From Phaeodactylibacter xiamenensis (GTDB lineage Bacteria > Bacteroidota > Bacteroidia > Chitinophagales > Saprospiraceae), in the NCBI RefSeq assembly GCF_000759025.1, contig NZ_JPOS01000084.1, positions 1 to 64,000 of the forward strand: 64,000 nucleotides of DNA, written 5' to 3'. Each line of letters opens with the position of its first letter. The first letter of the stretch is position 1. The notes beneath the pieces are model-generated. The model was not told where the DNA came from, ran no database searches, and saw only the letters and a list, made by a program, of their open reading frames with translations. Position numbers and translations under genes: made by a program. Shown in pieces: positions 6,388 through 31,381 of the stretch.

Positions 6388-6771
6388 ACGAAAACAAGTT
6401 AAATGTTAAAGCAATCTTAACAGATTCGCCAATTTCCTTTAGTTTTTACACTAATATGAAAATAGAGAATATTCGCTGTTGCTTACCTTTAAATACAGAT
6501 AATGCCCCGGTTTTGTTCCCATTAGACCAAATTTGGATACTAACCCGGATGAATATAGCCTGCCATATCAAGCCGGTTGTCTTTGCCTACCTTATAATAC
6601 ATGCTCCAATATTTGTTTCAGCTGAAAGAGGCGGTAAGGCTACGATACTGAAAAAGACTCCCTGTTGATCAACGAGGCAACAGCCATACATTGTTAAATT
6701 CTTCCGGATTTCTTTTTTTGCCTATTGAAATATGGCGAATCGAATTATCCGTCAGAAGCAACTTGGCTTCC

Positions 6772-6802
6772 TTTGCAAATTCACGAAATATAAATACTTT
6801 TG
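6772..6802 (+). promoter_or_regulatory. Promoter of the halopyrrole-type operon
   Basis: TTTG at 6772-6775 and TACTTTTG at 6795-6802 are separated by exactly 19 bases, a full match to the Bacteroidota housekeeping promoter pattern TTTG-N19-TAnnTTTG. The predicted start of transcription, near 6808, leaves a leader of about 65 bases before the carrier-protein ATG at 6873. Confidence 0.65.
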
Positions 6803-6872
6803 TAAGTAAAGCGACATTTGTTTGGGTATTCAGACCTACACCGAAAGGAGCTAAAAACAAATCATAAACAAC

Positions 6873-7136
6873 ATGGCACATATTAAAGCCCAACTGCGGG
6901 ACTACCTCCTGAATGAATTAAACCTGCCTTTACAGCCTGAGGAATTACAAGACGACACCATGCTGGTTAGCGACCGTATCATGGATTCCATATCCTCCCT
7001 CATGCTGGTAGAGTACCTGGAGAAAACCTTCAACATCAGCTTTGAGCCACATGAGGTGACCGCGGAAAACCTTGACTCCCTAAACATTATCGAGGCATTC
7101 GTCAATCAGAAACAAGTTAGTGCAAAGGCTGCATAA
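6873..7136 (+). CDS. Acyl/peptidyl carrier protein (PltL-like)
   Basis: An 87-residue stand-alone carrier protein, the usual length for a free ACP/PCP. Ser39 in the motif IMDSISSLMLV is the expected 4'-phosphopantetheine attachment site. Predicted helices at the N-terminus, after Ser39 (LMLVEYLEKTF) and near the C-terminus (LDSLNIIEAFV) fit the four-helix fold. It is first in the operon and its 3' end overlaps the adenylation gene by 17 bases. With the next three genes it matches the PltL/RedO role: carrying L-proline while it is oxidised to pyrrole-2-carboxylate and then halogenated. The family is certain; the prolyl cargo is inferred from the neighbouring adenylation enzyme. Confidence 0.88.
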   Translation: MAHIKAQLRDYLLNELNLPLQPEELQDDTMLVSDRIMDSISSLMLVEYLEKTFNISFEPHEVTAENLDSLNIIEAFVNQKQVSAKAA

Positions 7137-8619
7137 AGACATTCTTCAGCAAGCTGCAAATAACCCTGGAGGTGTTGCGATTCAATTTCCATTTGAAAAA
7201 AGAAACCTCTCTTACGGGCAACTCTATGCTCAGGCACGCGGGATAACCCTTGCGCTTGAGAGACTTTCTCTGCCCAAGGGCAGTATTGTAGCCCTTTATC
7301 TGGACAAATCGCCGGAAGCGATCGCTGCCATCCTGGGTATTTTAATGGCAGAACTTGCCTACCTGCCACTGGATGTGGATGCACCCGATTCAAGGAATCA
7401 ATTCATCATTGAGCAAAGCCAGGCTCAGGTTATTTTGACCAGAGAAATGGCCGAAAATCCTTTCCCGGTACTGAGTAGTCCTTCTGGTACGGTCGAAGGC
7501 CTTGCTCTGTACCGGTCTGCTGCAGAGGCATCCGGCTTAAAATTACCTGAAGGGCTGGCTTATGTGCTTTACACCTCAGGCTCGACCGGCGTACCTAAAG
7601 GCGTGATGGTCACGCACACAGCAGCTCTTGCGTTTGTGGATTGGGCTCGTGATACTTTTGTACTACGGCCGGAGGATACGCTCACCTCCATTGCGCCCCT
7701 CCACTTTGACCTGTCCATCTTTGATATCTTTGGCGGACTGAGTGCGGGCTGTACACTTTTGCTCCTTACGCCATCAGAGTCCAAAAACCCCTTGCTCCTC
7801 AGCAGCTATATAGCAGAATATGGTGTGACTACGATTTATGCCACTCCTACCCTTCTCCAATTGATGCCCCGGTTCGGGAAAGCTGGCCGGTACGATCACA
7901 GCAAACTCCGTCAAGTACTTTTTGCGGGAGAGGTTTTTCCTATTCCTGCGCTTAGAGCCCTGCAGGAGATATGGCATACAGCCAAATTTTACAATCTCTA
8001 CGGCCCTACCGAAACCAACGTCTGCACCTGGCACCCGCTGCCGCCAACCGGTACAGACGACCGGCAAGCCCCCTATCCTATCGGACAGCCCTGCCCCTAT
8101 GATCAGTGCGCTATACTACAGGAGGATGGGAGCATTAGCAGTGAGCTTACTGGTAGTGGCGAGCTTTTGGTGAGTGGTGCTTCTGTAATGGCCGGATACC
8201 TTGGTATGCCGGAGCAGACTCGTCAGGCGATGGTAGAACACGAAGAACGGGTGTGGTACAAAACCGGAGACCTGGTGGAAGTAGATTCAAATGGTGACCT
8301 CCTGTACCGCGGGCGCCGGGGCAGAATGGTCAAACGACGGGGGTACCGCATAGAACTTGGCGAGATAGAAGCAGCCCTGCACCAGTATGAAGCTATCGCT
8401 CAGGCCGCCTGTCTGGCTCTGGAAAAAGAACAATCGGTAAGTGCGATATGGGTGTTTTATGTAGCTCCGGAAGGCCCGCTGCCCCATACCTTATTGACAG
8501 AGTTTCTGGCAGGCCGGATACCGGAATACATGCTGCCAGACCGGTTTGTACACTTGCCGGAAATCCCACAGACTTCCAGTCAAAAAACCGACTATCAGGC
8601 CCTAAAGCAACTGCTATAA
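7120..8619 (+). CDS. Stand-alone adenylation enzyme, predicted L-prolyl-AMP ligase (PltF-like)
   Basis: A 499-residue ANL-superfamily enzyme without condensation or carrier domains. The core motifs are YTSGSTGVPKG (151-161), FDLSIFD (196-202), YGPTETN (294-300), YKTGDLVEV (about 395) and a C-terminal lysine in SQKTDY (Lys489). Mapping the ten GrsA pocket positions gives D197, L198, F201, Y240, L267, A269, L293, V301, C302 and K489. The code I remember for PltF/RedM-type prolyl adenylation enzymes is DLLYLALVCK, so nine of ten agree and only the third differs (F for L). It should activate L-proline as prolyl-AMP and load the carrier at 6873. The start is a GTG at 7120 inside the carrier gene. 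It is followed by a TAATG overlap with the dehydrogenase, which implies translational coupling. Confidence 0.85.
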   Translation: MQRLHKDILQQAANNPGGVAIQFPFEKRNLSYGQLYAQARGITLALERLSLPKGSIVALYLDKSPEAIAAILGILMAELAYLPLDVDAPDSRNQFIIEQSQAQVILTREMAENPFPVLSSPSGTVEGLALYRSAAEASGLKLPEGLAYVLYTSGSTGVPKGVMVTHTAALAFVDWARDTFVLRPEDTLTSIAPLHFDLSIFDIFGGLSAGCTLLLLTPSESKNPLLLSSYIAEYGVTTIYATPTLLQLMPRFGKAGRYDHSKLRQVLFAGEVFPIPALRALQEIWHTAKFYNLYGPTETNVCTWHPLPPTGTDDRQAPYPIGQPCPYDQCAILQEDGSISSELTGSGELLVSGASVMAGYLGMPEQTRQAMVEHEERVWYKTGDLVEVDSNGDLLYRGRRGRMVKRRGYRIELGEIEAALHQYEAIAQAACLALEKEQSVSAIWVFYVAPEGPLPHTLLTEFLAGRIPEYMLPDRFVHLPEIPQTSSQKTDYQALKQLL

Positions 8620-9752
8620 TGTACTCTTTTGCACCATCGGAAAAACAGCAGCAGCTTCAGGTATCTCTTGCCGAATTCATCAGGCAGGAGCTGGCTCCCC
8701 TACTTGATCCCGATGCAAAAACGTTCCCCTCCGAAGCCTGGAAAAAGGCCGGTGAGCAGCTGCTGCAGGGGCTCGCCATCCCGGAGACATACGGTGGGCG
8801 CGGGCTGGATGCAATGGATGTTTTCCTCGCGCTTGAAACCCTGGGTTATCATTCCGAAGACAACGGCTTCAACTTTGCAATTAGCGCCCATCTGCTGGCT
8901 TGTACAGTGCCGGTCTGGTTGTTTGGGACGGAAGAACTCAAAGCGGAGTACCTTCCTGGTTTATCCAATGGGGCACTTACTGCTGCCAATGCGATGACCG
9001 AGCCGGCATCAGGCTCCAATGCCTTTAGTATGCAAACGACCGCCCTGCCTCTTGAATCCGGAGATTTCATGCTGAACGGCAACAAGTGCTTCTCCAGTAA
9101 TGCGCCGGTTGCTGATGTGCTGGTCGCTTACGCTGCCAATGACCCTGAACGGGCACACATGGGAGGCATTACCGCCTTCCTTATCGATCGCAAAAAACAC
9201 CCTTTTTCAACCGGAGCCCCTCTTGAAAAGGCAGGCTTGCACACTTGCCCGCTGGGAGATGTTTTTTTTGATCAAACCCCTGTTGAAAATCGTTTTATCA
9301 TTGGTAAGGTAGGCCGTGGCGCATTGGTCTTCAACCGGTCTATGGAGTGGGAACGGAGCTGTCTCGGCGCTACACATATCGGCAATATGCAGCGATTGCT
9401 TGACAAAGCGGCCAAGCTGATTAAGAACACTGATGCAGGCGCCTTCGGCGAAGCCGTCCGGCAGGAAATCGCCTACTGGCAGGCCCAGCTCGACGCAGTA
9501 AGGATCAACGGGTACGCTCAGGCGTGGCAACTGAGCCAAAAGAAGGCTAATCCGCGAGGAGCAGCTTCCTCTAAACTACTCATCAGTGAATTGTACAAAA
9601 AAATGACAGTAGCCCTTTGCAACTGCTTAGGGGAAAAGCAATATCTTGATGGTGACTTTAACCGGTCGCAGGCAGATGCACTTAGCAGCACCATTTACTC
9701 TGGCACGTCCGAAATACAAAAACAAATCATAGCTCAGTCGATAGGGCTGTAA
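8619..9752 (+). CDS. Acyl-CoA dehydrogenase-family flavoenzyme, predicted prolyl-carrier-protein dehydrogenase (PltE-like)
   Basis: A 377-residue enzyme, starting at the ATG of the TAATG overlap (MYSFAPSEKQQQ). It has the acyl-CoA dehydrogenase core: helical N-terminal domain, the flavin strand region around AMTEPASGSN (125-134), and the C-terminal helical domain ending in YSGTSEIQKQIIAQS. The usual catalytic Glu of medium-chain enzymes (Y-E-G-T) is Ser here. A Glu on the earlier helix, in MEWERSCLGA (Glu245), lines up with the isovaleryl-CoA dehydrogenase base. As I know it, that placement is also used by the PltE/RedW/CloN3 prolyl-PCP dehydrogenases. The predicted reaction is FAD-dependent oxidation of prolyl-S-carrier to pyrrolyl-2-carboxyl-S-carrier. 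An ordinary branched acyl-CoA role is the alternative, but the operon context argues against it. Confidence 0.82.
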   Translation: MYSFAPSEKQQQLQVSLAEFIRQELAPLLDPDAKTFPSEAWKKAGEQLLQGLAIPETYGGRGLDAMDVFLALETLGYHSEDNGFNFAISAHLLACTVPVWLFGTEELKAEYLPGLSNGALTAANAMTEPASGSNAFSMQTTALPLESGDFMLNGNKCFSSNAPVADVLVAYAANDPERAHMGGITAFLIDRKKHPFSTGAPLEKAGLHTCPLGDVFFDQTPVENRFIIGKVGRGALVFNRSMEWERSCLGATHIGNMQRLLDKAAKLIKNTDAGAFGEAVRQEIAYWQAQLDAVRINGYAQAWQLSQKKANPRGAASSKLLISELYKKMTVALCNCLGEKQYLDGDFNRSQADALSSTIYSGTSEIQKQIIAQSIGL

Positions 9753-9764
9753 ACCATCTTTATC

Positions 9765-11102
9765 ATGAACACCTCAGCAGACATTATCATTATTGGAGGC
9801 GGGCCAAGCGGTTCGTCCACAGCCACTTACCTCGCCCGTCTTGGATATGACGTTCTTGTGCTGGAAAAAGAGCATTTCCCGCGCGAACACGTTGGTGAGT
9901 CCATGCTTCCCTTCACTTACGACCTCTTTGAAGAACTGGGTTTGCTGGAAGAAATGAAAGCCCGCTTTACCAGAAAACCCGGGGTTACGTTTTCCAATGC
10001 GGATGCCAGCCAGGAATCACATTGGTGCTTCAACCGGGTCATTGATGGTCCGCAGGCACTTTCCTTTCATGCCCGTCGTGCCCACTTTGACGATCTGTTG
10101 CTGAGAAACAGTGAAAAGAATGGCGCCACCGTTATCGAGGGCGCAACAGTAACGGCCGTGGATTTTGAGCCGCAGGGCGTCAAAGTCACTGCTGAAATTG
10201 ATCACGGTGCTCTGCAAATATTTGAAGCCCGCTTTTTAGTGGATGCCAGTGGGCAGAATGCTTTTGTCGCACGAAAACTCGGCACACAAAAGCCATTTAA
10301 GCGGCTCAATGTGCGGCAGGCCCTTTCAGCACACTGGGTAGATACGAAGCTGGACGCCAGTCTGGCTAACGGCAACATCAAAATTGTCCACCTGGGCGGA
10401 GAAAAGCTGGGCTGGATCTGGATGATCCCCATCAAAGACAGCCTGAGTATCGGTGTGGCGCTCAATATGAGCTATGCCAAACAGGAGCGCAAACGGCTGA
10501 TGGCCCAGCACGGACGTGATGGCTGGGAAAAAGCGCTCTACCTGCAGGAAGTGCAGTCTTCACCAGCGGTGATGTCTGTCCTGGAGGGTGCCAAAATGAT
10601 TGACGAAGTGGCCAGTAATGGTGATTTCTCCTATTACAGTGAGAAAAAGTTTGATGATCAGTTTGCCATCGTTGGTGATGCCAGTGGCTTCCTCGATCCT
10701 ATCTTCTCCAGCGGCATTTACCTCGGCATGATGAGCGCGAAGCTGGTCTCAGGCGGGATTGATGAAATGCTGAAAGGCAAAGGCAAAGAGCGCCTTGAAG
10801 AAGCTTACAAGGATATTTCCGGTGGCTATCAGGTGGTGGAAGAACTCATTTGTACCTTTTATGAGCCTAACTCCATTGCCTTTTCTGATATTACGGTAGA
10901 CCGGAACTTTGGTTTCAGGAAGTTTGAAACCGCCTACTCCATACTGCACCTGATCCTGGCCGGTGATTTCTTTAAGAATCACGAGCGGTACCTCAAAGCA
11001 ATAGCGACGCTAAAGAGCGCGGAAATGATTGAGAAGTTTAAGAGCCTGACCGGCCACGCTGACGAAGCCAAAATGGAAGAAGTGTGCCTGATGCCTGCTT
11101 AG
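9765..11102 (+). CDS. Flavin-dependent halogenase, predicted pyrrolyl-carrier-protein type (PltA/Bmp2-like)
   Basis: A 445-residue FAD enzyme. It has the dinucleotide-binding GGGPSGSS at 11-18, the halogenase hallmark WxWxIP as WIWMIP at 217-222, and the FxDPxxSxG element as FLDPIFSSG at 309-317. Lys71 (TRKPGVTF) sits where the catalytic lysine that forms the haloamine intermediate is expected. These features separate it from plain geranylgeranyl-reductase-like oxidoreductases. It starts 12 bases after the dehydrogenase and is the fourth gene of the operon, so carrier-bound pyrrole is the likely substrate, as in PltA and Bmp2. Whether it uses chloride or bromide, and how many positions it halogenates, cannot be read here. 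It would need a flavin reductase from elsewhere in the genome. Confidence 0.83.
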   Translation: MNTSADIIIIGGGPSGSSTATYLARLGYDVLVLEKEHFPREHVGESMLPFTYDLFEELGLLEEMKARFTRKPGVTFSNADASQESHWCFNRVIDGPQALSFHARRAHFDDLLLRNSEKNGATVIEGATVTAVDFEPQGVKVTAEIDHGALQIFEARFLVDASGQNAFVARKLGTQKPFKRLNVRQALSAHWVDTKLDASLANGNIKIVHLGGEKLGWIWMIPIKDSLSIGVALNMSYAKQERKRLMAQHGRDGWEKALYLQEVQSSPAVMSVLEGAKMIDEVASNGDFSYYSEKKFDDQFAIVGDASGFLDPIFSSGIYLGMMSAKLVSGGIDEMLKGKGKERLEEAYKDISGGYQVVEELICTFYEPNSIAFSDITVDRNFGFRKFETAYSILHLILAGDFFKNHERYLKAIATLKSAEMIEKFKSLTGHADEAKMEEVCLMPA

Positions 11103-11195
11103 ATACACATGCGTAAAAAGAGCATTCGTTTCTACAGCCATGCTAATGGAGCCTAATATTGCAAACGGCCAGGTTGCCGGCCTCAAATACTGAAT

Positions 11196-11897
11196 ATGTA
11201 CGGAAAATACTGGGATGCATTCTACCATAGAACCTATGCCAGTGGTAAAGCGCTTTGGGATGTCCCACCCGAACAGTCAGTGCTCGAAGACCAGCGTGTT
11301 TTTGGCTCCGCTTTCGAGGGGGTCGGCACCGTAGCGGATATAGGTTGTGGCACCGGAGAGCAATCCAGGTACCTCGCCAGGTTCTACTCCAAAGTAATTG
11401 GGATCGATGCAGCCCCCAGGGCTATAGAAATCGCAAAGCAACACACACCTGCTGCCAATACGCTCTTTGAAGTGGGGGACCTTGCCTCCCCTGAATTCGC
11501 ACAGCAGCTGCATCAGGCCCATGGAGACATGAATGTTTACATGCGGGGGGTGCTTCATCAAATCAGAGAAGCTGACCGGGAACAAGCCGCTGCCAACCTG
11601 TTACACCTGATTGGCGACAAAGGTGCGTTGTACCTGATCGAAGTGGGTAAAAACATCAGGGACTATTTCCGCTCCGCTACCAATTCCTTTCACGAGCTGC
11701 CGGATGCGGTACAGGAAACTTTCATCAGTAATTTACCGCCCCATGGCGTGGATGAGGAGGAGATACACCGGCTTTTTAACCAAAAACAATATCGGTTAAA
11801 CCAGCACGGTACCGGGTATTTAAACACCAACCTGCTTTTGAGAGATGGCACGGCTGTAAAAATCCCGGCTGTATTCGGTTTGATTGCTAGGAATTGA
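11196..11897 (+). CDS. Class I SAM-dependent methyltransferase of the halopyrrole operon
   Basis: A 233-residue Rossmann-type methyltransferase. Motif I is VADIGCGTGEQS (about 48-59), followed by the acidic strand end VIGIDAAP (about 68-75) and GDLASPEF. There is no signal peptide. It follows the halogenase by 93 bases on the same strand and may be the last enzyme of the operon. Its N-terminal YWDAFYHRTYASGKALWDVPPEQ resembles the leader of thiopurine/thiol-type and small-molecule methyltransferases, so a small acceptor is plausible. A tempting idea is methylation of the pyrrole product (N-, O- or carboxyl-methyl), possibly to release it. That is inference; the acceptor is unknown. Confidence 0.75.
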   Translation: MYGKYWDAFYHRTYASGKALWDVPPEQSVLEDQRVFGSAFEGVGTVADIGCGTGEQSRYLARFYSKVIGIDAAPRAIEIAKQHTPAANTLFEVGDLASPEFAQQLHQAHGDMNVYMRGVLHQIREADREQAAANLLHLIGDKGALYLIEVGKNIRDYFRSATNSFHELPDAVQETFISNLPPHGVDEEEIHRLFNQKQYRLNQHGTGYLNTNLLLRDGTAVKIPAVFGLIARN

Positions 11898-11941
11898 GTT
11901 ATTTTGACGCTCATTTAATCATCCATACAAAACCAACGATA

Positions 11942-12322
11942 ATGAAAAATTCATTTGTCTTGTTTTTTGCATTCATGCTGGGCATTATTTTGGTTTCCTG
12001 CTCAGGAGATGCGCCGGACAATAATAGTGAAACAGAAACAACCGCTAAAACGGAAGCACCTGCCGCCCAGGCCAATCCTGATAAATCCAAAGTGGTTATT
12101 CCTCAGGGGCAATCTGCGGATGAATTCGTTTTTACTAAACTCAAGAAAGGTTTAGACAAACGGGGTATCAAATTTTCTGCAGATCAGGACACAGCCTTAC
12201 GGCAACTGATCAGCGAAAACGACCTTACACCAGAAAACCTTAAAGCAAAAAGGGCGGAGATACTCCGGCAAGTACAGGAAGAAATCCTGACAGACGAACA
12301 AAAAGCTATGCTAAAAAAGTAA
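11942..12322 (+). CDS. Small lipoprotein with LTxxQ-like motif
   Basis: A 126-residue protein starting at the ATG at 11942. The signal peptide FVLFFAFMLGIILVSC ends in a lipobox (LVSC), so it is probably a periplasm-facing lipoprotein. After an Asn/Glu/Thr/Ala-rich linker comes a helical segment ending LTDEQKAMLKK, which resembles the LTxxQ motif of Spy/CpxP-like periplasmic proteins. It begins 44 bases after the methyltransferase stop and could be cotranscribed, but nothing in it suggests a part in pyrrole chemistry. The upstream in-frame start at 11894 would spoil the signal peptide and is rejected. Function unknown. Confidence 0.7.
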   Translation: MKNSFVLFFAFMLGIILVSCSGDAPDNNSETETTAKTEAPAAQANPDKSKVVIPQGQSADEFVFTKLKKGLDKRGIKFSADQDTALRQLISENDLTPENLKAKRAEILRQVQEEILTDEQKAMLKK

Positions 12323-12337
12323 AGCTAATTCTTCAAA

Positions 12338-12371
12338 GAGGGAAAGGTCTGGCACAACTGGCTTTTCCCTC
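12338..12371. terminator. Hairpin between convergent genes
   Basis: GAGGGAAAG and CTTTTCCCTC form a nine-pair stem with one bulge in the 73-base gap between the lipoprotein gene (+) and the large membrane-protein gene (-). T-rich bases follow on the + side (CCTATCCTTTT), so it best fits termination of the halopyrrole/lipoprotein transcript. Confidence 0.45.
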
Positions 12372-12395
12372 CCTATCCTTTTGCCCTGGTCTCAT

Positions 12396-15300
12396 CTAGT
12401 TGATTTCAAACAACAAATAACTTCCCCGGTAAACCGTTTCCCCTCTGATGCCTGCCCGTCCGGAAATACGATGCTTACCCAACGGCACCGTTTCACCGGG
12501 TTCACCTTTCACTACATTATCGGTAAAAATCAGCCTGACTTTGGGTGACGTAAAGAGCATTTGCGAAAAACGCCGGGTTTTTTCCGTCAGGGTCTTTTCG
12601 GGGGTACGGTCCAGGCTTGCCGTATTCATATCGAACAGGATATAACGGAATCCTTCTGCCTTTAGTAAATCGATAAAGGCATCCTCTGCCCCATCCAGTG
12701 CCCGCATTATTTCGTCGTATTTACCCAGCTGATTATCCTCCAGTACGCGGCGGTCGTTGTAATCAATATGATAATTGAAGAAGGTGCCCACCCGGTAGAC
12801 TTTATCTTCTTTATTTTGATTGATGTAATCGATGGCTTCTCCTAAATAAGGTTTGAATGAAGACAGGGTCTTACTGGCGCTAAGCCCCTCTCCAAAAGAA
12901 CGCAGAACCGGTTCCTGATAAATAAGGCCTGCATTTTTGGGAGGCTGCAAAGCAGATATAAAAACTAAAGCATAGCTCATTAAAATATAAACAGCCAGGG
13001 TGGCGCCTACTGCCCATGACCGAACGCTTCTGTACTCAAAGCCAATAGACTGCGCTCCATAAACGAGGAAAATCATTAAGGTAACCAGCATCGGGAAACC
13101 ATACCAGGAAATACCGCTGCCTATGAGCAACCAAAGCGCACCAAAAGCTACTGTAAACAAGAGCAGATAGCGTGCTTTCTCAGTACTGCCTCCCCAGCGG
13201 GCCTTAAGTAGCCAGCCGGTAATACCACCCAGCAATAGCAGTGTTGCAAAAACACCAGAGAAAGCCATGCCGGATGCGGCCTCGAATAATGGCGCTAATG
13301 GCCTTGCTGCAAGCAATACAGTATCGTTGAGGGAAGCCCATATGCCGGTAACAAAATTTTCGTAAGCAGGCGGAGGGCTCCCCAGCAGTTGCTCCTTCAC
13401 TACTGCCAGCCCTTCCTGATGGTCTACCGTCCACACCCCAAGCATAAATAATAGAATGGATAGTACAGAAAGTACCAGGTTTGGAGCTAGACTTTTTTTC
13501 CCTCCTGAAAACAACAAGATGGGGAATAAAACCAGAAATAAAATCCCAATATCAATGTACTGTGACTTTAGAATATTGGTATTCATGGTTAAATCATAGG
13601 GCAGAGAGGCATAAAGGGGCAGCCCTGATTCATACCCCAGATAGCGTTGTATCTCCTCTCTCTTTGCCAGGGCGCCGGCTGAGAATAAAAGATCATCTTT
13701 TGTCTCTTCGGTTGTCTCAGCAATCTCTGGCCTTATGTTGCCCAGGCCCTCTTCACGGAGGTCAAACGCCATGGCTTTTTCCCGCTGTTCCGGTAAAAGG
13801 ACCTGATCTGTCACGAAACGCAGAAGCTTGCCACGGTTCAATTTGTCCGCAGCCGTAATTTCTTCCTGCTCCAGGTAGTTGCTAATCTGCTCCAATTGGA
13901 CATCGGAAAGCTGTATGTCCAGGCCAGCAGTGCGTTTTTTTATGTTTTCCATGAGCCTTTCCGGATAGTCCACTTCAATGGCCTGAGCCTGTACCTTAAT
14001 CACAGGTGTGGGAAAAGGTGCCTCCAGAAGGGCCTGAACGCCTACCTCCCCATTGGCAGCCATGTTGCGAATACCCCATGGGGCGAAACACAGTAATGCA
14101 GCTCCTCCGGAAAGCAGGTAAGCCATCAGCAGGGATTTGAGGTTTACCCCTTTCATCCAGGCAGGGACTAACAAGGCAACAGCGGCACCAATACCGATCA
14201 GCCCTACCACATAAGGTGCTGTTTCCCCAAAGGGAAAATAGCCGAAATTATTCCCCCCAAATAAGAATAGTACTCCGGAGAAACCAGTGACCAGGCTCAT
14301 CGCCAGCCAATAATTCCCAAACCGGTAACCGATCACCGTAAAAATGGCTACAATGCTGAGTAAGCCCGTGTACTTAATGCCAAAGGCAAACCCCAGCAGC
14401 CACCCTGTAAGCAACAACATCCACTGAGTTGCCGAAAGGCCAAATGGTAGTTTGACAGGAGATTCATCCTGAGCGTCAGGCCGGGCAGCCCGCGTCCAAA
14501 ACTCAATCAGCATAAGGGCTGCTGCCAGCGTGATGAAGGTAAAGCCCAGGTCCACCTTTTCATCGTAAAGGTAGTGGAAACTCAGGCTGGGGTTTAGGGC
14601 AACCAGCCAGACTGCCAGCCAGGACCAGCTCCGGTTCAACAGCAACCGGGCCAGCCTGAAAGCAGCCAACAGCACGAGTAAAAAAGAAAAGTGGGCAATA
14701 CCAATTGAGAATACAGCTTTGCCAAAAAGCACTTCTCCAAGACTCAGCAGAAGCTGCCAGAAGTAGGCCTGCCCCCCCTCTGTTAGCCCGTTGTACTCCA
14801 CAATAAGCTGAGTGGTATTCATGTAGAGGGCCGCACCGTCAAAGCCGGTTGGGAAGGGCTTGATCGCCGCAATCCCATTGACTGCAAGCGTGCTCAACAG
14901 GAAGAATACAGGTAACTGCAACCAACGGTTTTTGTATTTGTAGACTTGTTGTTTTAATAAAGTACGCTGCCAAAGATTCCAACTCTCCCGGTAACGCCAT
15001 CCTAAAACCCCAAGGGCTATAATTCCTGCAACGATTGTATTAAGCTGATGAAAAGCCCCCAGCAAAAATGCCCCTAACCCGATAAAACTGGTACCTGTAG
15101 CCACCCGGAGTAAGCTTGCTGTACCTTTTGAATATCGGTTGGCCAGCAAAGCCATCACCGGCTGCCCGGCCACGTAAGCAAGGGTATAGAGTAAAAATAA
15201 ACAGCCGTGTACCAGAACGTTCATCCCCATGAAGCGCCAAAGGCCGCCCGGGTCATTAAAAATACTGTACCGGTTATTGAAGATAAGTATCGTGACAACC

Positions 15301-15563
15301 TGAAAGATCAAAAATAATCCGTAAACCTGAAGCCCGTTCACTTTCCGGGTCCGCCCTGACTTCCCACTGAAAACCCACCATGCCCAGGCGCCTGCTGCAA
15401 TAACGGTATTAGCAGCAAAAAGGTCTGCATTGGGCATCATGAGCAGACTGGTGAAGTAATAGGGATGGAACCCAAAGTATGCGATAAGTACTAAAAGCAC
15501 CCAGAAAATACTAAATGCGCTGATTAGATTGCGGTTGAGGTTTTGTGATACTGGAGTTTTCAT
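12396..15563 (-). CDS. Large polytopic membrane protein, GT-C glycosyltransferase-like
   Basis: A 1055-residue protein with roughly 20 predicted membrane segments and a soluble C-terminal domain of about 200 residues. After several N-terminal segments there is a first large loop with the acidic pattern PTGFDGAALYMNT (about 240-250), then a row of hydrophobic helices with YDEKVDLGFTF. This arrangement resembles GT-C enzymes that use polyprenyl-phosphate sugars. I do not recognise a specific family and cannot point to a proven catalytic Asp. A soluble insertion at about 505-640 (LEAPFPTPVIKV...) lies between helices. It is 35 bases downstream of the sulfotransferase-glycosyltransferase fusion and almost certainly in the same operon, so a role in assembling the surface glycan is the best guess. 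Confidence 0.65.
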   Translation of the reverse strand: MKTPVSQNLNRNLISAFSIFWVLLVLIAYFGFHPYYFTSLLMMPNADLFAANTVIAAGAWAWWVFSGKSGRTRKVNGLQVYGLFLIFQVVTILIFNNRYSIFNDPGGLWRFMGMNVLVHGCLFLLYTLAYVAGQPVMALLANRYSKGTASLLRVATGTSFIGLGAFLLGAFHQLNTIVAGIIALGVLGWRYRESWNLWQRTLLKQQVYKYKNRWLQLPVFFLLSTLAVNGIAAIKPFPTGFDGAALYMNTTQLIVEYNGLTEGGQAYFWQLLLSLGEVLFGKAVFSIGIAHFSFLLVLLAAFRLARLLLNRSWSWLAVWLVALNPSLSFHYLYDEKVDLGFTFITLAAALMLIEFWTRAARPDAQDESPVKLPFGLSATQWMLLLTGWLLGFAFGIKYTGLLSIVAIFTVIGYRFGNYWLAMSLVTGFSGVLFLFGGNNFGYFPFGETAPYVVGLIGIGAAVALLVPAWMKGVNLKSLLMAYLLSGGAALLCFAPWGIRNMAANGEVGVQALLEAPFPTPVIKVQAQAIEVDYPERLMENIKKRTAGLDIQLSDVQLEQISNYLEQEEITAADKLNRGKLLRFVTDQVLLPEQREKAMAFDLREEGLGNIRPEIAETTEETKDDLLFSAGALAKREEIQRYLGYESGLPLYASLPYDLTMNTNILKSQYIDIGILFLVLFPILLFSGGKKSLAPNLVLSVLSILLFMLGVWTVDHQEGLAVVKEQLLGSPPPAYENFVTGIWASLNDTVLLAARPLAPLFEAASGMAFSGVFATLLLLGGITGWLLKARWGGSTEKARYLLLFTVAFGALWLLIGSGISWYGFPMLVTLMIFLVYGAQSIGFEYRSVRSWAVGATLAVYILMSYALVFISALQPPKNAGLIYQEPVLRSFGEGLSASKTLSSFKPYLGEAIDYINQNKEDKVYRVGTFFNYHIDYNDRRVLEDNQLGKYDEIMRALDGAEDAFIDLLKAEGFRYILFDMNTASLDRTPEKTLTEKTRRFSQMLFTSPKVRLIFTDNVVKGEPGETVPLGKHRISGRAGIRGETVYRGSYLLFEIN

Positions 15564-15598
15564 AGTTGTTTAATGTTAAAGAGGCTTTTCGTTGATTT

Positions 15599-17629
15599 TT
15601 ATTTACGTACCTGCTGGTAGGTCAAAAAAGTTTCATAGGCCGTCCGCAGCCAGGAAAATGCCCTGGCCCGGCGCAATGCCGCCTTTCCCAGATCAGCTCC
15701 ATCAGCAAGCAAAACCTCTTCCATTCCTGCCCGGATTGCCCCTACGCTGCCGGCATCCACGCCGACCCCACCGTCTCTCACTACTTCAGGCATAGAGCTG
15801 TTGTTTCCAAAAAGTACAGGGGTGCCACAAAGCATGGCTTCCAAAGGAGGCAGGCCAAAACCTTCATAATGAGCTACATAACACAGGGCTACCGCACCGG
15901 AATACACCGTAGCAAGGTCCTCATCTGCCACATAACCTGTGAAGTGAATGGAAGAGGCATAAGGGTGCGCCTTATCGTAAAGGGTGCTTACCTTCCATCC
16001 GCGTTTTCCGCACACCACAAAGGTCAGGTCTTCATAGGCTCCTGTAGATTTAAGCTGCAGGAAAGCGGCGAGGGTGTTAGCAAGGTTTTTTCGTGGCTCT
16101 ATGGTTGAAAGGCTCACCAGGTAAGGCCCTTCAGGGATTTGGTACCGCTCCCGCACCTGATGTAAACGCTGTTCCGTTCTCACGGGGTGGAACAAATCAC
16201 CATTAGCAGCTTCGTATACAACCTTTATCCTGTCTTGTGGGATGGCATAGCTGGCCTGGACATCCCGACTGGTCGCTTCAGAAACAGCAATCAGGCAAGC
16301 CGCTTTTTTCTCCAGAAAGCGCATGCCTGCTTCTGACAGTTTTATATTGTGTTTTTCGTGAAACGCAGGATAAATAAGATGGGTCAAATCGTGAACTGTA
16401 CCAATAACCGGCAGTGTATAGGGTTTGATGAAAAAGTAATTCTGGGGTAAAGGGAGATGTATAAGGTCATAGTTCTGCATAATCCGCTGTTGGCTCGCTC
16501 TTGCCTTATACCGCCCCACCGCCCCCCTCACCCAGCTCAAAAAAGAACGGGCGGGCAACCGGGTATATATCCGCCTGAGCGGTTGATATATGAAAAGCGG
16601 GAGATTGTCAGCCAGCCATGCTTTAAGCCGCAGCAGGATATGCTCATATCCTGAAGGCTGATCGCTACGGTGCAGAGCTTCATCGGATAGCTTTTTTTCC
16701 GATTCACCTTCCCTTTTGGCTTCGGTGTTAATCAGGTCTATAACAGAACGCAGCGGCTTAATGCTATCCCCAATGAGACAATCGACTAGTAGCTTTTCGG
16801 GCAATTGCGATTGTAAAGCATTCAAAGCCTGCAAAAGCTCTACCTGATACCTGCGGACCCCATCCATAGTCGTATCCGCTAATTTATTGGCCTCCATAAG
16901 TACACGTACCGGCTGCATGGCAGGAGCCTCATTAGCCCCCCTACCGTAGCCAAACTCCTGTAGCGTCGATCCATGCAGTTCGCCAAACAGGGACTGCAGG
17001 TCTTCGGGCATCTCCTCCTTCCATGAACCAGCTTTGCCCTTGCGAAAGTTCTTCCGGGCAAGGGCTGCGACCTCCTCTTCCCGGGCCAGGAACGTAGTCC
17101 CACTTCCATACTGCGGCTGACCAAACTTCAGCTTCTCAAAGGTTGGCAGTCGCTCCCGGTTGGGGTCAGGAAGGTCTATTACTTTGCGGAGTTTTTCCAC
17201 CTCGCGAAGCGGGTCTTCGATTAAGTCTTCATAACGAATAACAACATCGGCCTCAGCCGTCCACTGCTTCACATTCTCGGACCAGCCACCGAAGTAACTG
17301 CCACCTAGCGCGAGCGTTGCTTCCAGAAGGTTGGTGTAGAAATCCGTGCCTGGTTCAATGATATCTTTTCGGTGGTGGGCCAAAGAAACAAGTGCATCCC
17401 GTCCGTCACGAACAAGGTATACCTTGGGTGCAGCACGGTGTTCCTCCGGCAACTGATCAGGCAGCAGGTGGGTTTTCACAAAGGGATAGGCGGCATAGTT
17501 CTCGTCCATCGGATAGTTGTCTTCCCGATGGAACGTACTTGATTCCAACCCGTAAACTTCAAACAGAATATTTCTAAAAAAGGTATTGCCCGAACGAGGG
17601 AATGAAGCCAGCCATATCATATTAAGCAA
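15599..17629 (-). CDS. Fusion protein: sulfotransferase domain + GT4-type glycosyltransferase domain
   Basis: A 676-residue protein with two catalytic domains in one uninterrupted frame. Residues 1-230 are a PAPS-dependent sulfotransferase: the 5'-phosphosulfate loop is FPRSGNTFFRN (residues 10-20), and the 3'-phosphate segment is VYLVRDGRDALVSLAHH with the expected Arg and Ser. Residues about 235-676 are a GT-B glycosyltransferase of the GT4 type: GTVHDLTHLIYP, LSTIEPRKNLANTL, and the EX7E-like HYEGFGLPPLEAM. The join (RGANEAPAMQPVRVL) looks like a linker, not an accidental read-through. The same protein probably transfers a sugar and sulfates the glycan. It is divergent from the glycosyltransferase at 17692 and upstream of the GT-C-like gene. 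Confidence 0.85.
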   Translation of the reverse strand: MLNMIWLASFPRSGNTFFRNILFEVYGLESSTFHREDNYPMDENYAAYPFVKTHLLPDQLPEEHRAAPKVYLVRDGRDALVSLAHHRKDIIEPGTDFYTNLLEATLALGGSYFGGWSENVKQWTAEADVVIRYEDLIEDPLREVEKLRKVIDLPDPNRERLPTFEKLKFGQPQYGSGTTFLAREEEVAALARKNFRKGKAGSWKEEMPEDLQSLFGELHGSTLQEFGYGRGANEAPAMQPVRVLMEANKLADTTMDGVRRYQVELLQALNALQSQLPEKLLVDCLIGDSIKPLRSVIDLINTEAKREGESEKKLSDEALHRSDQPSGYEHILLRLKAWLADNLPLFIYQPLRRIYTRLPARSFLSWVRGAVGRYKARASQQRIMQNYDLIHLPLPQNYFFIKPYTLPVIGTVHDLTHLIYPAFHEKHNIKLSEAGMRFLEKKAACLIAVSEATSRDVQASYAIPQDRIKVVYEAANGDLFHPVRTEQRLHQVRERYQIPEGPYLVSLSTIEPRKNLANTLAAFLQLKSTGAYEDLTFVVCGKRGWKVSTLYDKAHPYASSIHFTGYVADEDLATVYSGAVALCYVAHYEGFGLPPLEAMLCGTPVLFGNNSSMPEVVRDGGVGVDAGSVGAIRAGMEEVLLADGADLGKAALRRARAFSWLRTAYETFLTYQQVRK

Positions 17630-17691
17630 ATCTATTTCTGAGCCCTAAGTTAAAAAAGTTAAATTTATGCCCTGAAAAATCTGATAAATCT

Positions 17692-18711
17692 ATGGCTGAC
17701 AAACGCAGAGTACTATTTCACCGGACCTGGACGAAGCCCAATGGCGGCACGAGCGGTGGTCAGATGAAGGTACGTGATGCGTTCGTTCATTTCCAGGCTT
17801 CAGAGCGGTTTGAGCCCAAGGTTTACTTTCCCCCCTCAACGCTTTGGGTGGATAACCCTGGCAACGTCTGGCGCCCTTTCCGCCAACGGGGCATCGGAGA
17901 GTGGTCTATCCTTCCGGACGATGTACTCTTCTTCTCCGGCCACGACTGGAATATCCTCAACGATACGGAACGGCAACACCCGCCTGTCCCCATTCTCAAC
18001 ATCGCCCAACCGAGGCATACCAATCCGGCGGACAAAAGGCACGCTTTTCTAAAGCACCCGGCCATACGCATTGCCAAGAGTTCTGTCGGCAAAAAAATAC
18101 TGGAAGACCACGGCGTAAACGGCCCGGTGTTCCTGATACCCGATAGCATCGACTTTACTTTACTGCCTGAACCTAACTCCAAACCGGATTTGGACTTGTT
18201 GATCGTAGGGTTAAAAAACCCGGGGCTGGCCAAACGGCTGGAACAGCGCCTCAAACGCAAAAACCGCTGGCGGTGGCGCAAGTGGAAGATCAAAGTGCAA
18301 ACCCCTCCCCTGCTGCCTACCCGACAGGATTTCCTCCAACTGCTCAACCGGGCAAAGATCGTCGCTTATCTGCCGCTGGATGCCAGCCGGGGCGCAGAAG
18401 GGTTCTACCTGCCGGCCCTGGAAGGTATGTACCTGGAAAAGCTCGTCATCTGTCCCTATGCTGTTGGGAATATTGATTTTTGCATTCCCGAAAAGACCTG
18501 CATACAACCGGATTACAATGAAGAAGCCCTCATGGAAGCCATACTGCGGGCACTCCAAATGCCGGATAGCGAGCGGCAGCCTTTCCTACAGCAAGGCAAA
18601 GCCATCACAGCCAACCACGATATCAAAAAGGAGAAACAATCCATGTTGAACCTCCTGCATCAGGCCGATGAGCTCTGGGCAGATCAATCGCTTTTCCAAT
18701 ATGGACAATAG
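17692..18711 (+). CDS. Glycosyltransferase, GT-B fold (GT4-like, divergent)
   Basis: A 339-residue soluble protein. The N-terminal half starts VLFHRTWTKPNGGTSGGQMKV, a Gly-rich acceptor-side loop seen in GT-B enzymes. The C-terminal half has the donor-side pattern VAYLPLDASRGAEGFYLPALEGM, an E..G....P.LE motif equivalent to EX7E. It sits 62 bases from the divergent fusion gene, so the two share a control region, and overlaps the next gene (a sulfotransferase) by 11 bases, implying coupled translation. It is probably one step of the surface-glycan pathway; donor and acceptor unknown. Confidence 0.75.
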   Translation: MADKRRVLFHRTWTKPNGGTSGGQMKVRDAFVHFQASERFEPKVYFPPSTLWVDNPGNVWRPFRQRGIGEWSILPDDVLFFSGHDWNILNDTERQHPPVPILNIAQPRHTNPADKRHAFLKHPAIRIAKSSVGKKILEDHGVNGPVFLIPDSIDFTLLPEPNSKPDLDLLIVGLKNPGLAKRLEQRLKRKNRWRWRKWKIKVQTPPLLPTRQDFLQLLNRAKIVAYLPLDASRGAEGFYLPALEGMYLEKLVICPYAVGNIDFCIPEKTCIQPDYNEEALMEAILRALQMPDSERQPFLQQGKAITANHDIKKEKQSMLNLLHQADELWADQSLFQYGQ

Positions 18712-19522
18712 CACAGGTAAAAATATCATCCTCACGGGGCCACCACGCTCCGGCACAACGCTAAGCTGCTTCCTGCTTAATCAGTTGCCCAACACTATCA
18801 CGCTGCACGAGCCTATGAACCTGGGTATGTTCCAAAGCCAGGAACAGGGACTTGAGGAAACGCAGCAGTTTTTCGCAGCCATGCGGCAGAGCCTGCTCAC
18901 AGAGGGTAAGGCTTTGTCCAAAGTCAAAGCCGGCGCCATTCCTTCTAACCCTTTCGGGAAAGCGGAGGAGGGAAAACGAGCCAGCCTGGTAAAAAAAGAT
19001 TGGATACACTTTGAGAAACCCCTGCAGGAAGACTTCACGCTGGTGATTAAGCAAAATGCGCACTTTACCTTTTTGCTGGAGCCCCTCAACCTACTCTATC
19101 CGCTGTATACCATCATTCGCAATCCGGTCTCCACCATTGCCTCCTGGAATACCATTCAGGCGCCGGTATCCAAAGGCAACCTGACTGTGCTTAAAGGGCT
19201 GCGCCCCGCGCTGTTTGAAGAATTAGAGCGCATTCCGGACTTGCTGGACCGGCAGGTACGCCTGCTGCACGAACTTTACCTCCCTTACCTCCTGCTTCGG
19301 AAAGAACAGCTTATCCGCTATGAGGATATAGTGCAAAGCAATGGGGCGGAACTGGGTAAGATTGTGCCCTCAGCTGCCAATATTGACCACCCCCTTGAGA
19401 GTAAAAACCGTAACCAGCTGTACGACGAAAGCTTAAGGTCCGCTATTTTCGAGCGCCTGGTCCGGTTCGGAGGCTGTTATATGGACTACTACCATGAAGA
19501 ACAGCTGGCTCAAGCTATTTAA
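18701..19522 (+). CDS. PAPS-dependent sulfotransferase
   Basis: A 273-residue protein starting at the ATG at 18701, which overlaps the upstream glycosyltransferase stop by 11 bases. The 5'-phosphosulfate loop is ILTGPPRSGTTLSCFLLN (residues about 9-26), and the 3'-phosphate-binding segment is YTIIRNPVSTIASW with Arg and Ser as expected. It also has IRYEDIVQ, typical of the family near the C-terminus. It is clearly paralogous to the sulfotransferase at 26585-27484, sharing the P-loop style, the 'HEPMNLG/NEPIAWRG' segment and the 'ESKN' region. The predicted role is sulfation of a sugar of the exported glycan in the cytoplasm. The earlier in-frame start at 18668 would extend it deep into the neighbour and is not preferred. 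Confidence 0.85.
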   Translation: MDNSTGKNIILTGPPRSGTTLSCFLLNQLPNTITLHEPMNLGMFQSQEQGLEETQQFFAAMRQSLLTEGKALSKVKAGAIPSNPFGKAEEGKRASLVKKDWIHFEKPLQEDFTLVIKQNAHFTFLLEPLNLLYPLYTIIRNPVSTIASWNTIQAPVSKGNLTVLKGLRPALFEELERIPDLLDRQVRLLHELYLPYLLLRKEQLIRYEDIVQSNGAELGKIVPSAANIDHPLESKNRNQLYDESLRSAIFERLVRFGGCYMDYYHEEQLAQAI

Positions 19523-19646
19523 AGCTACAATGTGGTGCTAATATGGGGCGCCCTAAGGGAAGAAAGCCTGATATTCTACAGTGACTAAAGCTGTGTGGTT
19601 TTTTCTCTTTACTTTTACCCAGGCAAAATCAACTTAACAATTTATT

Positions 19647-22199: not shown

Positions 22200-23090
22200 T
22201 CCTTCCTCCATCTGCTTAACAAATGTGAAGTAGTCTTGGTAGGCGTCCATCCACTTGAGCATAGCTTCGTAAAAAAGCGGCTGTTTGGTAAGATTGTTTT
22301 CCATTTGCATATGCTTCCAGGGGTTTTTCTTACCTGAATAATGCACCAGTTTGGCAGTATCCAGCGTGTCCCCCTCCCGATCCTTAATGATATCCGCCAA
22401 TCCTAACCTGAAGTTATAAGTGCCGGGCAGCGCATGATAATCCTTTCGGAAATACATGTTGAGCAGGTACTGGTCCGTTGAGGGGCGCTTTAGGCTTTTA
22501 TACAAATCAGGGTTGACCAGCTTCAGCAATTCTTTATAGGTCTTTTTATTCACCCATTCATCTGTAAAAAACATGATACCGGCGTTGAAAGTACGGTACC
22601 AGAAGTGGTCTTCCTCCGTTGGAGCCTGTGCTACCTGGAAAGTAGTGCCGTCTTTAGCCTTCCCCAGATAAGTAGCCCGGTCCGGCACACACATCATGGG
22701 GTACTCAAGGTCCATAAGCTCCCCAAAATCACCCTGGATCAGGACATCGCTATCAATATACATGTAGCGTTTATACCCTTCGAGCATGAACAGGTTTAAA
22801 GAATAAAAAACCATTTTTTTATGTGCTAAATCTCTCCGAACAGCCACAACTTTGTCAATAGCCTGAAGCAGATCTTCCCGGGGCGCCGCAAATTGCACAT
22901 TAGGGAAACGCTCCAAAAGGCTTTTTTCTGAATCGGATAAACCATAGCCATAGATGATGATATCTCCGTCGAACCACTTATTATACTTGAAGAAAGTATA
23001 CAACATGACCAATGTCCCGGGAATGAAATCTGATGTGGTAATGGTAATCAGACAGTGAGGCTTTTTCTCAGGCTTTGACCAAAATGCCAT
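22158..23090 (-). CDS. GT8-family glycosyltransferase
   Basis: A 310-residue GT-A enzyme. The N-terminal strand is CLITITTSDFIPGTLVML, the metal- and nucleotide-binding DxD is in YMYIDSDVLIQGDF, and the late motif LVHYSGKKNPWKH is the H-x-x-G-x-x-K-P-W signature of GT8 (LgtC/glycogenin type). These enzymes are retaining and use UDP-Glc, UDP-Gal or UDP-GlcNAc. It is paralogous along its whole length to 25661-26539. It is the last gene of a leftward run (27484 to 22158) that carries the ABC exporter, 43 bases after the ATPase. Its 3' end overlaps the converging MBOAT gene by 42 bases. Confidence 0.88.
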   Translation of the reverse strand: MAFWSKPEKKPHCLITITTSDFIPGTLVMLYTFFKYNKWFDGDIIIYGYGLSDSEKSLLERFPNVQFAAPREDLLQAIDKVVAVRRDLAHKKMVFYSLNLFMLEGYKRYMYIDSDVLIQGDFGELMDLEYPMMCVPDRATYLGKAKDGTTFQVAQAPTEEDHFWYRTFNAGIMFFTDEWVNKKTYKELLKLVNPDLYKSLKRPSTDQYLLNMYFRKDYHALPGTYNFRLGLADIIKDREGDTLDTAKLVHYSGKKNPWKHMQMENNLTKQPLFYEAMLKWMDAYQDYFTFVKQMEEGLIDVSFFGKVTQR

Positions 23091-23133
23091 TTCGATTTTG
23101 TTTTGAAGAGTTATTCCGACCGGAAAGAATTAG

Positions 23134-23964
23134 TTACATTTCGAAGTGCCGGATCTTTTTAAGCTTCATCTCCTTGACCCGCTCAGTCATATCATCGCCA
23201 ACGATATCATTGATGTAATACTCTAATGCGTCTTTAGCATCGTGAGCGTCCTGTATTAATTTCCCGCTCCGCATGACTAAGACTCGATTAGCCAGCGCCA
23301 TTACTTTACGGATACGGTTCGTAACGTAGAGGACGGCACGCTCTTTTTCTTGTACATATTCTCCTAAATGCTCGTAACACTTGGTTTTAAAGAGGCTGTC
23401 CCCCACTGCCAGGGCTTCATCAATAATAAACAGATCCGGCTCCGTAGCGATAGCCACTGAATAAGAAAGCCGGGCCCGCATACCGGAAGAGTAGTTCCCC
23501 ACCGGTGTATCAAGTGCATACTCCAATTCAGAAAAGTCGATGATAAAGTCCAGCTTTCGCTTCAGTTCTGCTTCCGTCATACCGAAAATAGCCGCTTTCA
23601 GCTTCATATTTTCAAGACCCGTAAACTCATTACGCAAGCCAACATTGAGTGCAAAAATGGGCGTTACTTTTAATCCTTGCCGGTACTTAATCTCTCCGGA
23701 TGTTGGCTGGTAAATCCCGGCAATTATCCGCATAAGGGTGGTCTTGCCTGAACCGTTCGCCCCAATTACTGCAATAATCTCACCTGGCTTGACCTTAAAG
23801 GAGACCTCATGGGTGGCCCAAAATTCTTCCGGGCGCAACTGCGTCGTTATCGGCAAGCCGACAGTTTGGCGGGCAACATCTTTTATGCCATAAAAAAGGC
23901 TTCGCTTCAGTCTGCGGCAAAACTTTTTAGAGACATGGTTTATTTCTAACAGGTGCTCATCCAT
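23134..23964 (-). CDS. ABC transporter ATPase, polysaccharide export (Wzt/TagH-like) with altered H-loop
   Basis: A 276-residue nucleotide-binding subunit: Walker A GANGSGKTT (68-76), signature NYSSGMRARL (158-166) and Walker B LFIIDEA with Glu183. The long N-terminal stretch before Walker A (FYGIKDVARQ...LRPEEFWATHEVS) is typical of Wzt/TagH/RfbE exporters of O-antigen and teichoic acids. It lies 14 bases after the matching permease, so the two form one transporter. The odd feature is the switch (H-loop) position. Family members read V-S-H-D or V-S-H-N; here the sequence is LYVTNRIRK, with Asn216 where the histidine should be. There is no extra C-terminal sugar-binding domain as in some Wzt proteins. 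Confidence 0.88.
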   Translation of the reverse strand: MDEHLLEINHVSKKFCRRLKRSLFYGIKDVARQTVGLPITTQLRPEEFWATHEVSFKVKPGEIIAVIGANGSGKTTLMRIIAGIYQPTSGEIKYRQGLKVTPIFALNVGLRNEFTGLENMKLKAAIFGMTEAELKRKLDFIIDFSELEYALDTPVGNYSSGMRARLSYSVAIATEPDLFIIDEALAVGDSLFKTKCYEHLGEYVQEKERAVLYVTNRIRKVMALANRVLVMRSGKLIQDAHDAKDALEYYINDIVGDDMTERVKEMKLKKIRHFEM

Positions 23965-25479: not shown

Positions 25480-25660
25480 TATACAAAATTCTCGATCCTT
25501 TAAAGTGGAAGGGTTCGGCAATGTCCCAATAGGGTGCTGCCATAGCGCTGTTTAGGTCATCATGCTTGGAGCGGGTTCGTTCATTCCTCCTCATCATGAT
25601 TGAGACACGTCTAATTAGCAATATTTCCCTGAAACAGCTGACGGATTATACCTAAATTCC

Positions 25661-31312: not shown

Positions 31313-31381
31313 TGCCCAGGCCCTCACAATGTGTTGGAACGGCACAGCCCGTTTCCCTAACAGCCATAAAAGCAAAAATAA

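Follow-up and report, generated by a model that had tools for sequence, protein, structure and literature searches.

A predicted Dlt-like system in Phaeodactylibacter xiamenensis that may attach a proline-derived, probably halogenated pyrrolyl group to a surface polysaccharide

The stretch of DNA analyzed here (hereafter the window) covers the first 64,000 nucleotides of the 300-kb contig NZ_JPOS01000084.1 of the marine bacterium Phaeodactylibacter xiamenensis (genome of 7.87 Mb). It contains a four-gene operon (6873–11102) for a carrier protein, an L-proline adenylation enzyme, a prolyl-carrier dehydrogenase and a flavin-dependent halogenase-like enzyme and, in the same polysaccharide island, a gene for a predicted MBOAT-SGNH fusion acyltransferase (19647–22199, + strand). 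We consider it probable that these genes form a system resembling Dlt, in which carrier-bound proline is oxidised and halogenated, and the resulting (halo)pyrrolyl group is passed to a surface glycan. Since the operon accompanies the MBOAT-SGNH gene within a polysaccharide island, this group would more likely end as a surface-glycan ester than as a soluble product of the pyoluteorin kind. The complete picture, that of a genetically encoded organohalogen coat with a halogenated heteroaromatic acyl group built on a carrier, a single-chain MBOAT-SGNH enzyme and a sulfated exopolysaccharide as acceptor, strikes us as an even call.

All four operon genes lie on the + strand. The carrier is a stand-alone protein of 87 amino acids (aa), DltC-like in role, with the phosphopantetheine serine Ser39 in a DSIS motif (6873–7136); the adenylation enzyme (499 aa, 7120–8619) has a GTG start and overlaps the carrier open reading frame (ORF) by 17 bases; the dehydrogenase, predicted to be pyrrole-forming (377 aa, 8619–9752), follows through a TAATG junction; and the flavoenzyme has 445 aa (9765–11102). 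Pfam recognizes in them PP-binding, AMP-binding, three Acyl-CoA_dh domains and Trp_halogenase, all exceeding the curated cut-offs. A preliminary description of the window had listed these four consecutive ORFs with their overlap and junction, and they are indeed present as described; it had also called them a minimal set, and here the four genes stand, but a same-strand accessory gene for a class I SAM methyltransferase (11196–11897, +; Methyltransf_25, 46.8 bits) and an island reaching about 28.2 kb had been missed. This methyltransferase gene is found downstream of the halogenase gene in several relatives, not in all, and its substrate may be the pyrrole ring or a sugar. The same description was right that no polyketide synthase (PKS) or nonribosomal peptide synthetase (NRPS) is attached: no condensation domain was found in the whole genome, for which reason a soluble PKS/NRPS product was rejected as first choice. 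A Pfam scan of the window proteins revealed no thioesterase gene in the operon, and ACPS has one Pfam match in the genome. The closest named relative is a Phaeodactylibacter metagenome-assembled genome (locus L014; L numbers designate loci and G numbers genomes), with identities of 96% for the halogenase, 94% for the dehydrogenase and 86% for the adenylation enzyme.

That the operon would convert L-proline to a pyrrolyl-S-carrier is well supported by sequence. The carrier (PP-binding, 21.2 bits for a cut-off of 20.8) has its Ser39 invariant in 6/6 aligned sequences; its best NCBIfam model is the ornithine-lipid acyl carrier protein (73 bits, below the cut-off of 130), and the carrier relative at L017 also matches DltC (28 bits, below the cut-off of 68). 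The pocket of the adenylation enzyme (AMP-binding, 247 bits) is formed by D197, L198, F201, Y240, L267, A269, L293, V301, C302 and K489, i.e., DLFYLALVCK. In a direct alignment with 6o6e, which we take to be PltF (we assign the short names of the dehydrogenase entries in the Protein Data Bank (PDB) on the same assumption), eight of the nine covered positions are equal, the third being F versus L; the tenth, outside this alignment, is presumably Lys in PltF. A profile built from six adenylation enzymes and searched against solved structures gave the L-proline ligase 6o6e as top single-domain relative (383 bits), the chains ranking above it having two matching domains each. Among 23 adenylation enzymes, including that of the window, the code DLFYLALVCK occurs in eight, V at position nine in five and DLLYLALVCK in two (L033 and L038), the other eight being different.

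The dehydrogenase (Acyl-CoA_dh N/M/1, 70–79 bits) belongs with enzymes of the expected type, as its family profile finds the prolyl-carrier dehydrogenases 5zw0 (367 bits) and 4irn (355 bits), then 6cxt (337 bits), named butyryl-CoA dehydrogenase in the table and presumably Bmp3, and next an acyl-CoA dehydrogenase at 279 bits. Its Glu245, invariant in 6/6, occupies what we take to be the catalytic-base position, and a Ser stands at what we assume to be the Glu position of the medium-chain type. Entry 6af6, otherwise like 5zw0, has Ala at the position of Glu245 and is presumably an active-site mutant. The best two NCBIfam models are PigA (303 bits, cut-off 500) and RedW (275 bits, cut-off 650), both matched below cut-off.

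Halogenation of the pyrrole ring by the flavoenzyme is plausible from its sequence, though less certain than pyrrole formation. Flavin-dependent halogenases are marked by a catalytic Lys and the motifs WxWxIP and FxxPxxSxG, and the window enzyme (Trp_halogenase, 104 bits for a cut-off of 21) has them intact as Lys71, WIWMIP and FLDPIFSSG. We aligned 23 homologs, 18 of which are in the family (L015 and L034 are cut at the contig start): the Lys and FxDPIFx-SG are present in 18/18, with FSSG in 15 and FASG in three (L018, L032, L034), and WxWxIP in 14, the other four reading WIFVIP (L032, L034, L036, L037). Among solved structures, the family profile scores highest with ChlB4 (209.7 bits), CndH (209.0), PltA (208.6), Mpy16 (205.1) and CmlS (193.6); the first four scores are too close for a substrate to be selected from sequence, and a PltA-like versus CndH-like assignment was given up for that reason. 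A choice between Cl and Br from the Bmp2/Mpy16 switch residues was also dropped, their numbering being uncertain. An AlphaFold2 model of the flavoenzyme (pLDDT 81) has CndH, PltA and ChlB4 as best Foldseek matches.

The flavoenzyme tree comprised 36 sequences, i.e., the 23 homologs, five solved halogenases and eight Bacteroidota flavoproteins drawn from 27 genomes with lower-scoring halogenase matches; these eight also carry halogenase motifs and are functionally uncharacterized. In this tree, the 18 family members form a clade of their own with support 1.0, a clade on which PMC8269204, in the part consulted, has no bearing. As the deep branches do not resolve and the eight flavoproteins share the motifs, halogenation is likely rather than proven. 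The preliminary description fares unevenly on the chemistry: its L-proline-specific pocket, said to match nine of ten positions of the PltF/RedM code, and the formation of pyrrolyl-2-carboxyl-S-carrier are both well supported by the pocket and dehydrogenase evidence, and its ring halogenation is made plausible by motifs and halogenase folds but not backed by a grouping with pyrrolyl halogenases. Elsewhere in the tree, the flavin halogenases of L039 and L040 (G164, G174) group with PltA/ChlB4/Mpy16 with support 1.0, and their neighbourhood looks pigment-cluster-like by eye.

From sequence comparison and modelling, the unannotated 850-aa protein encoded at 19647–22199 would combine, in a single chain, a DltB-like MBOAT and an SGNH transferase. 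It matches no family of Pfam or NCBIfam; its comparison with DltB-like MBOATs by hhalign gave a probability of 90 (E 1.4e-6), His341 falling on the MBOAT His, and Foldseek with its low-confidence model found DltB best (E 3e-5), HHAT and PORCN at E ~1e-3, then SGNH esterases and PatB. His341, the tyrosine pair Tyr527-Tyr528 between the membrane and SGNH parts, and the Ser615/Asp811/His813 residues are invariant in 29/29 homologs longer than 700 aa (28 distinct genes, the copies at L061–L063 and L075–L078 being left aside). GDSL lipase matches (E ≤ 1) were obtained for at least six of 20 members of the family, the window protein giving none. Searches of PDB sequences with seven members returned a single chance-level match and, with the 20, nine matches at E ≤ 1, of which the two below 0.01 are SGNH-type esterases. 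Of an initial six loci, five (L014–L017, L019) have the operon close to the gene for an 840-residue protein; at L018, it comes directly behind a DltB-like MBOAT gene (TIGR04091, 127.5 bits for a cut-off of 375; best PDB match DltB, 86 bits) and a gene for a 300-aa protein, SGNH-like by eye and of no Pfam family, and the L018 genome also carries the 840-residue protein on another contig. One stretch of 19 kb, L057 (G034 contig 61), contains five MBOAT-SGNH genes, which suggests several acylation sites or acyl groups.

The operon and this acyltransferase are linked by their distribution. In a draw of 396 genomes of the order, halogenase orthologs (13 places of at least 489.8 bits, the next score being 217) occur in 12 genomes of eight genera and two families, and the earlier remark that such a set is unexpected in a Saprospiria-like genome thus holds only in part; lower-scoring matches (173–217 bits) are found in 27 more genomes. 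The MBOAT-SGNH protein is present in 18/396, and all 12 halogenase-ortholog genomes fall within these 18 (hypergeometric 7e-19, kinship not corrected), as do all 15 genomes whose dehydrogenase reaches 392 bits or more (1.5e-24), a cut of our own choosing, below which G164 comes next with 371. Five further halogenase genomes (G770, G796, G797, G798, G799) all carry it as well; among them, G796 corresponds to L014 (a G002 contig), G797 to L015 (same places as G006), G798 to L018 and G799 to L019. In 17 of the 18 order genomes, the acyltransferase gene, or a piece of it, shares a contig with the adenylation gene, and in G018 the two are split between contigs; for G077 just the start of the acyltransferase is seen, and the G394 contig begins before a carrier would be visible. 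Three loci (L041, L042, L045) have the dehydrogenase together with a different flavoenzyme.

Outside the order, five of 287 genomes drawn from the phylum match the MBOAT-SGNH profile: G000, then G470 and G658, where just the SGNH part matches, and G447 and G660, from other classes, which have full-length proteins. As most of the relatives in these two showed no carrier gene beside them, the protein family is wider than the pathway, and its close tie to the operon holds for the order. One of these relatives, at L078 (G660 contig 22), stands beside a carrier gene and near a gene 21% identical to the adenylation enzyme; it possibly handles another acyl group.

A natural absence in G004, a sister genome of the same genus, bears on this link. 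G004, 92% complete, has the island on a single contig, with the same pair of transporter genes at its ends, and retains the genes for a 1055-aa protein, a sulfotransferase-glycosyltransferase fusion, a sulfotransferase, Wzm/Wzt and a small lipoprotein, plus relatives of two right-end sulfotransferases. Window positions 6549–11804 (operon) and 19428–23132 (MBOAT-SGNH and one family-8 glycosyltransferase, GT8) have no counterpart in it, and a search of the G004 genome found neither an MBOAT-SGNH gene nor a dehydrogenase (E ≤ 1e-60), the halogenase not having been searched genome-wide there. Of the methyltransferase gene, the final 35 codons persist in G004 (69% identity, E 1e-11), a remnant that points to loss and not to a never-filled site. 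G002, also of this genus, in which a single MBOAT-SGNH gene was found, just behind the lipoprotein gene, differs from G004 by the operon (10480–15692 of G002), the MBOAT-SGNH block (15904–18864) and a right-hand 3-kb piece (31311–34388). In G003 and G005, neither the MBOAT-SGNH gene nor the dehydrogenase was found (E ≤ 1e-60 for the latter); in G001 (83% complete), a contig carrying Wzm-Wzt-GT8-MBOAT-SGNH ends there, and no dehydrogenase was found in this genome.

The operon lies inside a 21-kb island of exporter, sulfotransferase and glycosyltransferase genes, which from 12.4 to 28.2 kb comprises the sulfotransferase-glycosyltransferase fusion, four more sulfotransferases, one Glycos_transf_1 protein, two GT8 and a Wzm/Wzt-type exporter. 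Behind the methyltransferase gene comes the small lipoprotein-like gene (by eye; 11894–12322, +; no Pfam family), kept in G004 with 68% identity, then the 1055-aa protein, a membrane protein by eye (12396–15563, −; no Pfam family), with 88% identity in L014 and 84% in G004. It is kept in G002 and G004, and relatives of 1031–1046 aa (28–30% identity) occur in L016, L017 and L019. The 676-aa fusion (15599–17629, −; Sulfotransfer_1 70 bits, Glycos_transf_1 85 bits) has relatives in other islands, at L062 and L063 by BLAST and at L052 by eye. A glycosyltransferase (17692–18711, +; Glycos_transf_1, 27.9 bits for a cut-off of 26.4) and a sulfotransferase (18668–19522, +; Sulfotransfer_3, 28.2 bits for a cut-off of 27) precede the MBOAT-SGNH gene, which is followed by a GT8 gene (22158–23090, −; Glyco_transf_8, 78 bits), a Wzt/TagH-like polysaccharide export ATPase (23134–23964, −; TagH 160 bits for a cut-off of 320, galactan Wzt 133 for 400) and a Wzm-like ABC-2 export permease (23979–24773, −; ABC2_membrane, 31.5 bits for a cut-off of 26.9). 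The right end holds, all recognized by Pfam, sulfotransferases at 24847–25521 (−), 26585–27484 (−) and 27591–28193 (+) and the second GT8 at 25661–26539 (−). Judging by these genes, the natural acceptor would be a sulfated, ABC-exported polysaccharide. Farther along, 46055–52762 (−) encodes a 2235-aa protein, by eye probably secreted and adhesin-like.

Put together, the genes suggest the following route. A phosphopantetheinyl transferase would arm the carrier, onto which the adenylation enzyme, given its proline pocket, would load L-proline; the dehydrogenase, given its family, would turn the prolyl thioester into pyrrolyl-2-carboxyl-S-carrier; the flavoenzyme would then halogenate the ring, with the methyltransferase perhaps methylating either this ring or a sugar. 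At the inner face of the membrane, the MBOAT half would accept the acyl group from the carrier; the group would move via Tyr527 or Tyr528 to Ser615 of the outside SGNH half, which would transfer it in ester linkage to a hydroxyl group on the sulfated polysaccharide that Wzm/Wzt exports. This last, transmembrane step is proposed on the strength of the fold, the residue conservation, the co-occurrence and the joint absence.

Several observations weigh against such a route. The Pfam MBOAT domain is detected in 0/20 members of the acyltransferase family, and the model of the window protein is of low confidence (pLDDT 68, pTM 0.52). The acyl-shuttle motif of DltX and related MBOATs is FXYXXF, according to the part of PMC12148441 consulted; the window protein reads GYYE, not an exact fit, with YY kept in 29/29, and an exact fit (the C-terminal end FIYFEF), which speaks for the route, is seen just in the DltB-like proteins of L018, L026 and L029 (three printed). 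In the flavoenzyme tree, the family does not group with PltA, and the branching between it, PltA, CndH/CmlS and the eight flavoproteins has a support of 0.027; the flavoenzymes of L041, L042 and L045 are 28–29% identical and lack WxWxIP. At L046–L048 (G164, G174, G194), MBOAT-SGNH is directly beside carrier and proline-like adenylation genes with no adjoining dehydrogenase or halogenase, so pyrrole is not obligatory; these genomes have no dehydrogenase of at least 392 bits, their matches (364–371 bits, and 210–217 bits for halogenase-like proteins) lying on other contigs. Their pocket codes include DLHYLALVCK and DIFYLAFVCK, and an unoxidised prolyl group is possibly transferred there. Judging from these three loci and from the different flavoenzyme of L041, L042 and L045, carrier, adenylation enzyme and MBOAT-SGNH appear to make up the core, to which oxidation and halogenation are additions. 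A neighbouring carrier gene was detected at one of the five acyltransferase relatives in G447 and G660 (BLAST of the fetched stretches using two carriers as queries, E ≤ 1e-6). At its right end, too, the island differs from those of the sister genomes, both GT8 genes and 27591–28193 having no counterpart in G004 or G002, and as just the lipoprotein gene parts operon and MBOAT-SGNH in G002, their joint absence need not represent two distant losses. Finally, the polysaccharide itself, the acyl chemistry, the halogen, the donor preference and the acceptor are all predictions from genes.

Other explanations have to be set against the Dlt-like system. The operon could make a small diffusible halopyrrole that, in the manner of tetrabromopyrrole, serves as a signal or an antibiotic and is freed by hydrolysis or methyl transfer, with the polysaccharide genes as mere neighbours; we hold this to be unlikely, for although the operon is of Plt/Bmp type and the methyltransferase gene is missing together with the halogenase gene in G004, the lack of a thioesterase gene and of condensation domains speaks against it, as does the acyltransferase, which accompanies the operon in 12/12 and 5/5 genomes and is gone with it from the largely kept G004 island. 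It is also improbable that the system works as proposed with a hydroxylating or inactive flavoenzyme, the polymer then bearing plain or hydroxylated pyrrole: the separate clade, the same motifs in other Bacteroidota flavoproteins and the three loci with variants lacking WxWxIP would fit, but the Lys and FxDPIFx-SG are kept throughout the family, whose closest solved relatives are named halogenases. Last, the acyltransferase might O-acetylate the polysaccharide from acetyl-CoA, as thought for other MBOAT/SGNH pairs, the pyrrole set serving otherwise. The four relatives in G447 and G660 with no detected adjoining carrier gene point that way, and so does the part of PMC12148441 consulted, where other MBOAT/SGNH pathways are described without a carrier protein; the contig shared with the adenylation gene in 17/18 order genomes and the adjoining carrier and adenylation genes of L046–L048 make it very unlikely in our eyes.

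Our literature searches, which cover subscription journals poorly, found no report of such a system and no paper pairing a flavin-dependent halogenase with either Saprospir- or MBOAT; papers on halogenated polysaccharides or lipopolysaccharide are, by title, chiefly about chromatography and some about algae, and combining pyrrole, proline, acyl-CoA dehydrogenase and surface polysaccharide with MBOAT yielded nothing related. If our reading of the Dlt-like system is true, it ties natural-product enzymology to envelope biology, provides a single-chain enzyme with which transmembrane acyl transfer could be studied, predicts organohalogen bound to surface polymers in some Saprospirales, and gives a role to halogenase sets that genome mining would class as orphan antibiotic clusters.

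Among known systems, the closest in plan is Dlt (DltA-DltC-DltB-DltD-DltX), which carries out the D-alanylation of teichoic acids in Gram-positive cell walls. It shares with the present system an adenylating enzyme, a stand-alone carrier and the MBOAT and SGNH functions, and our adenylation enzyme matches DltA profiles at 253–257 bits, below their cut-offs of 476–560. It is the proline pocket, the acyl group that would be oxidised, and probably halogenated, while bound to the carrier, and the MBOAT and SGNH parts in one chain that make the system Dlt-like and not Dlt; its setting, a polysaccharide island of a Bacteroidota genome, differs as well. With PltF/PltE/PltL/PltA and the Bmp enzymes (names that are in part our assumption), it has in common proline activation, prolyl-carrier dehydrogenation and a flavin halogenase, but its operon has no PKS, NRPS or thioesterase partner and its flavoenzyme falls in a separate clade. 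Clorobiocin, whose acyltransferase CloN7 is not known to be an MBOAT, is a small antibiotic, whereas here the group would go to a polymer beyond the inner membrane. The clorobiocin pathway, as given in the part of PMC11218499 consulted, converts carrier-bound proline to a pyrrole-2-carboxyl group and links this as an ester to a hydroxyl of a sugar. Peptidoglycan O-acetylation by PatA/PatB likewise combines MBOAT and SGNH with a tyrosine relay but uses acetyl-CoA as donor, two proteins and peptidoglycan as acceptor (PMC12148441, part consulted). The same part describes carrier-dependent MBOAT-SGNH acylation for D-alanine in Dlt and other pathways without a carrier; the system proposed here would, if true, be a second carrier-fed one, with an acyl group that is aromatic, tailored and probably halogenated.

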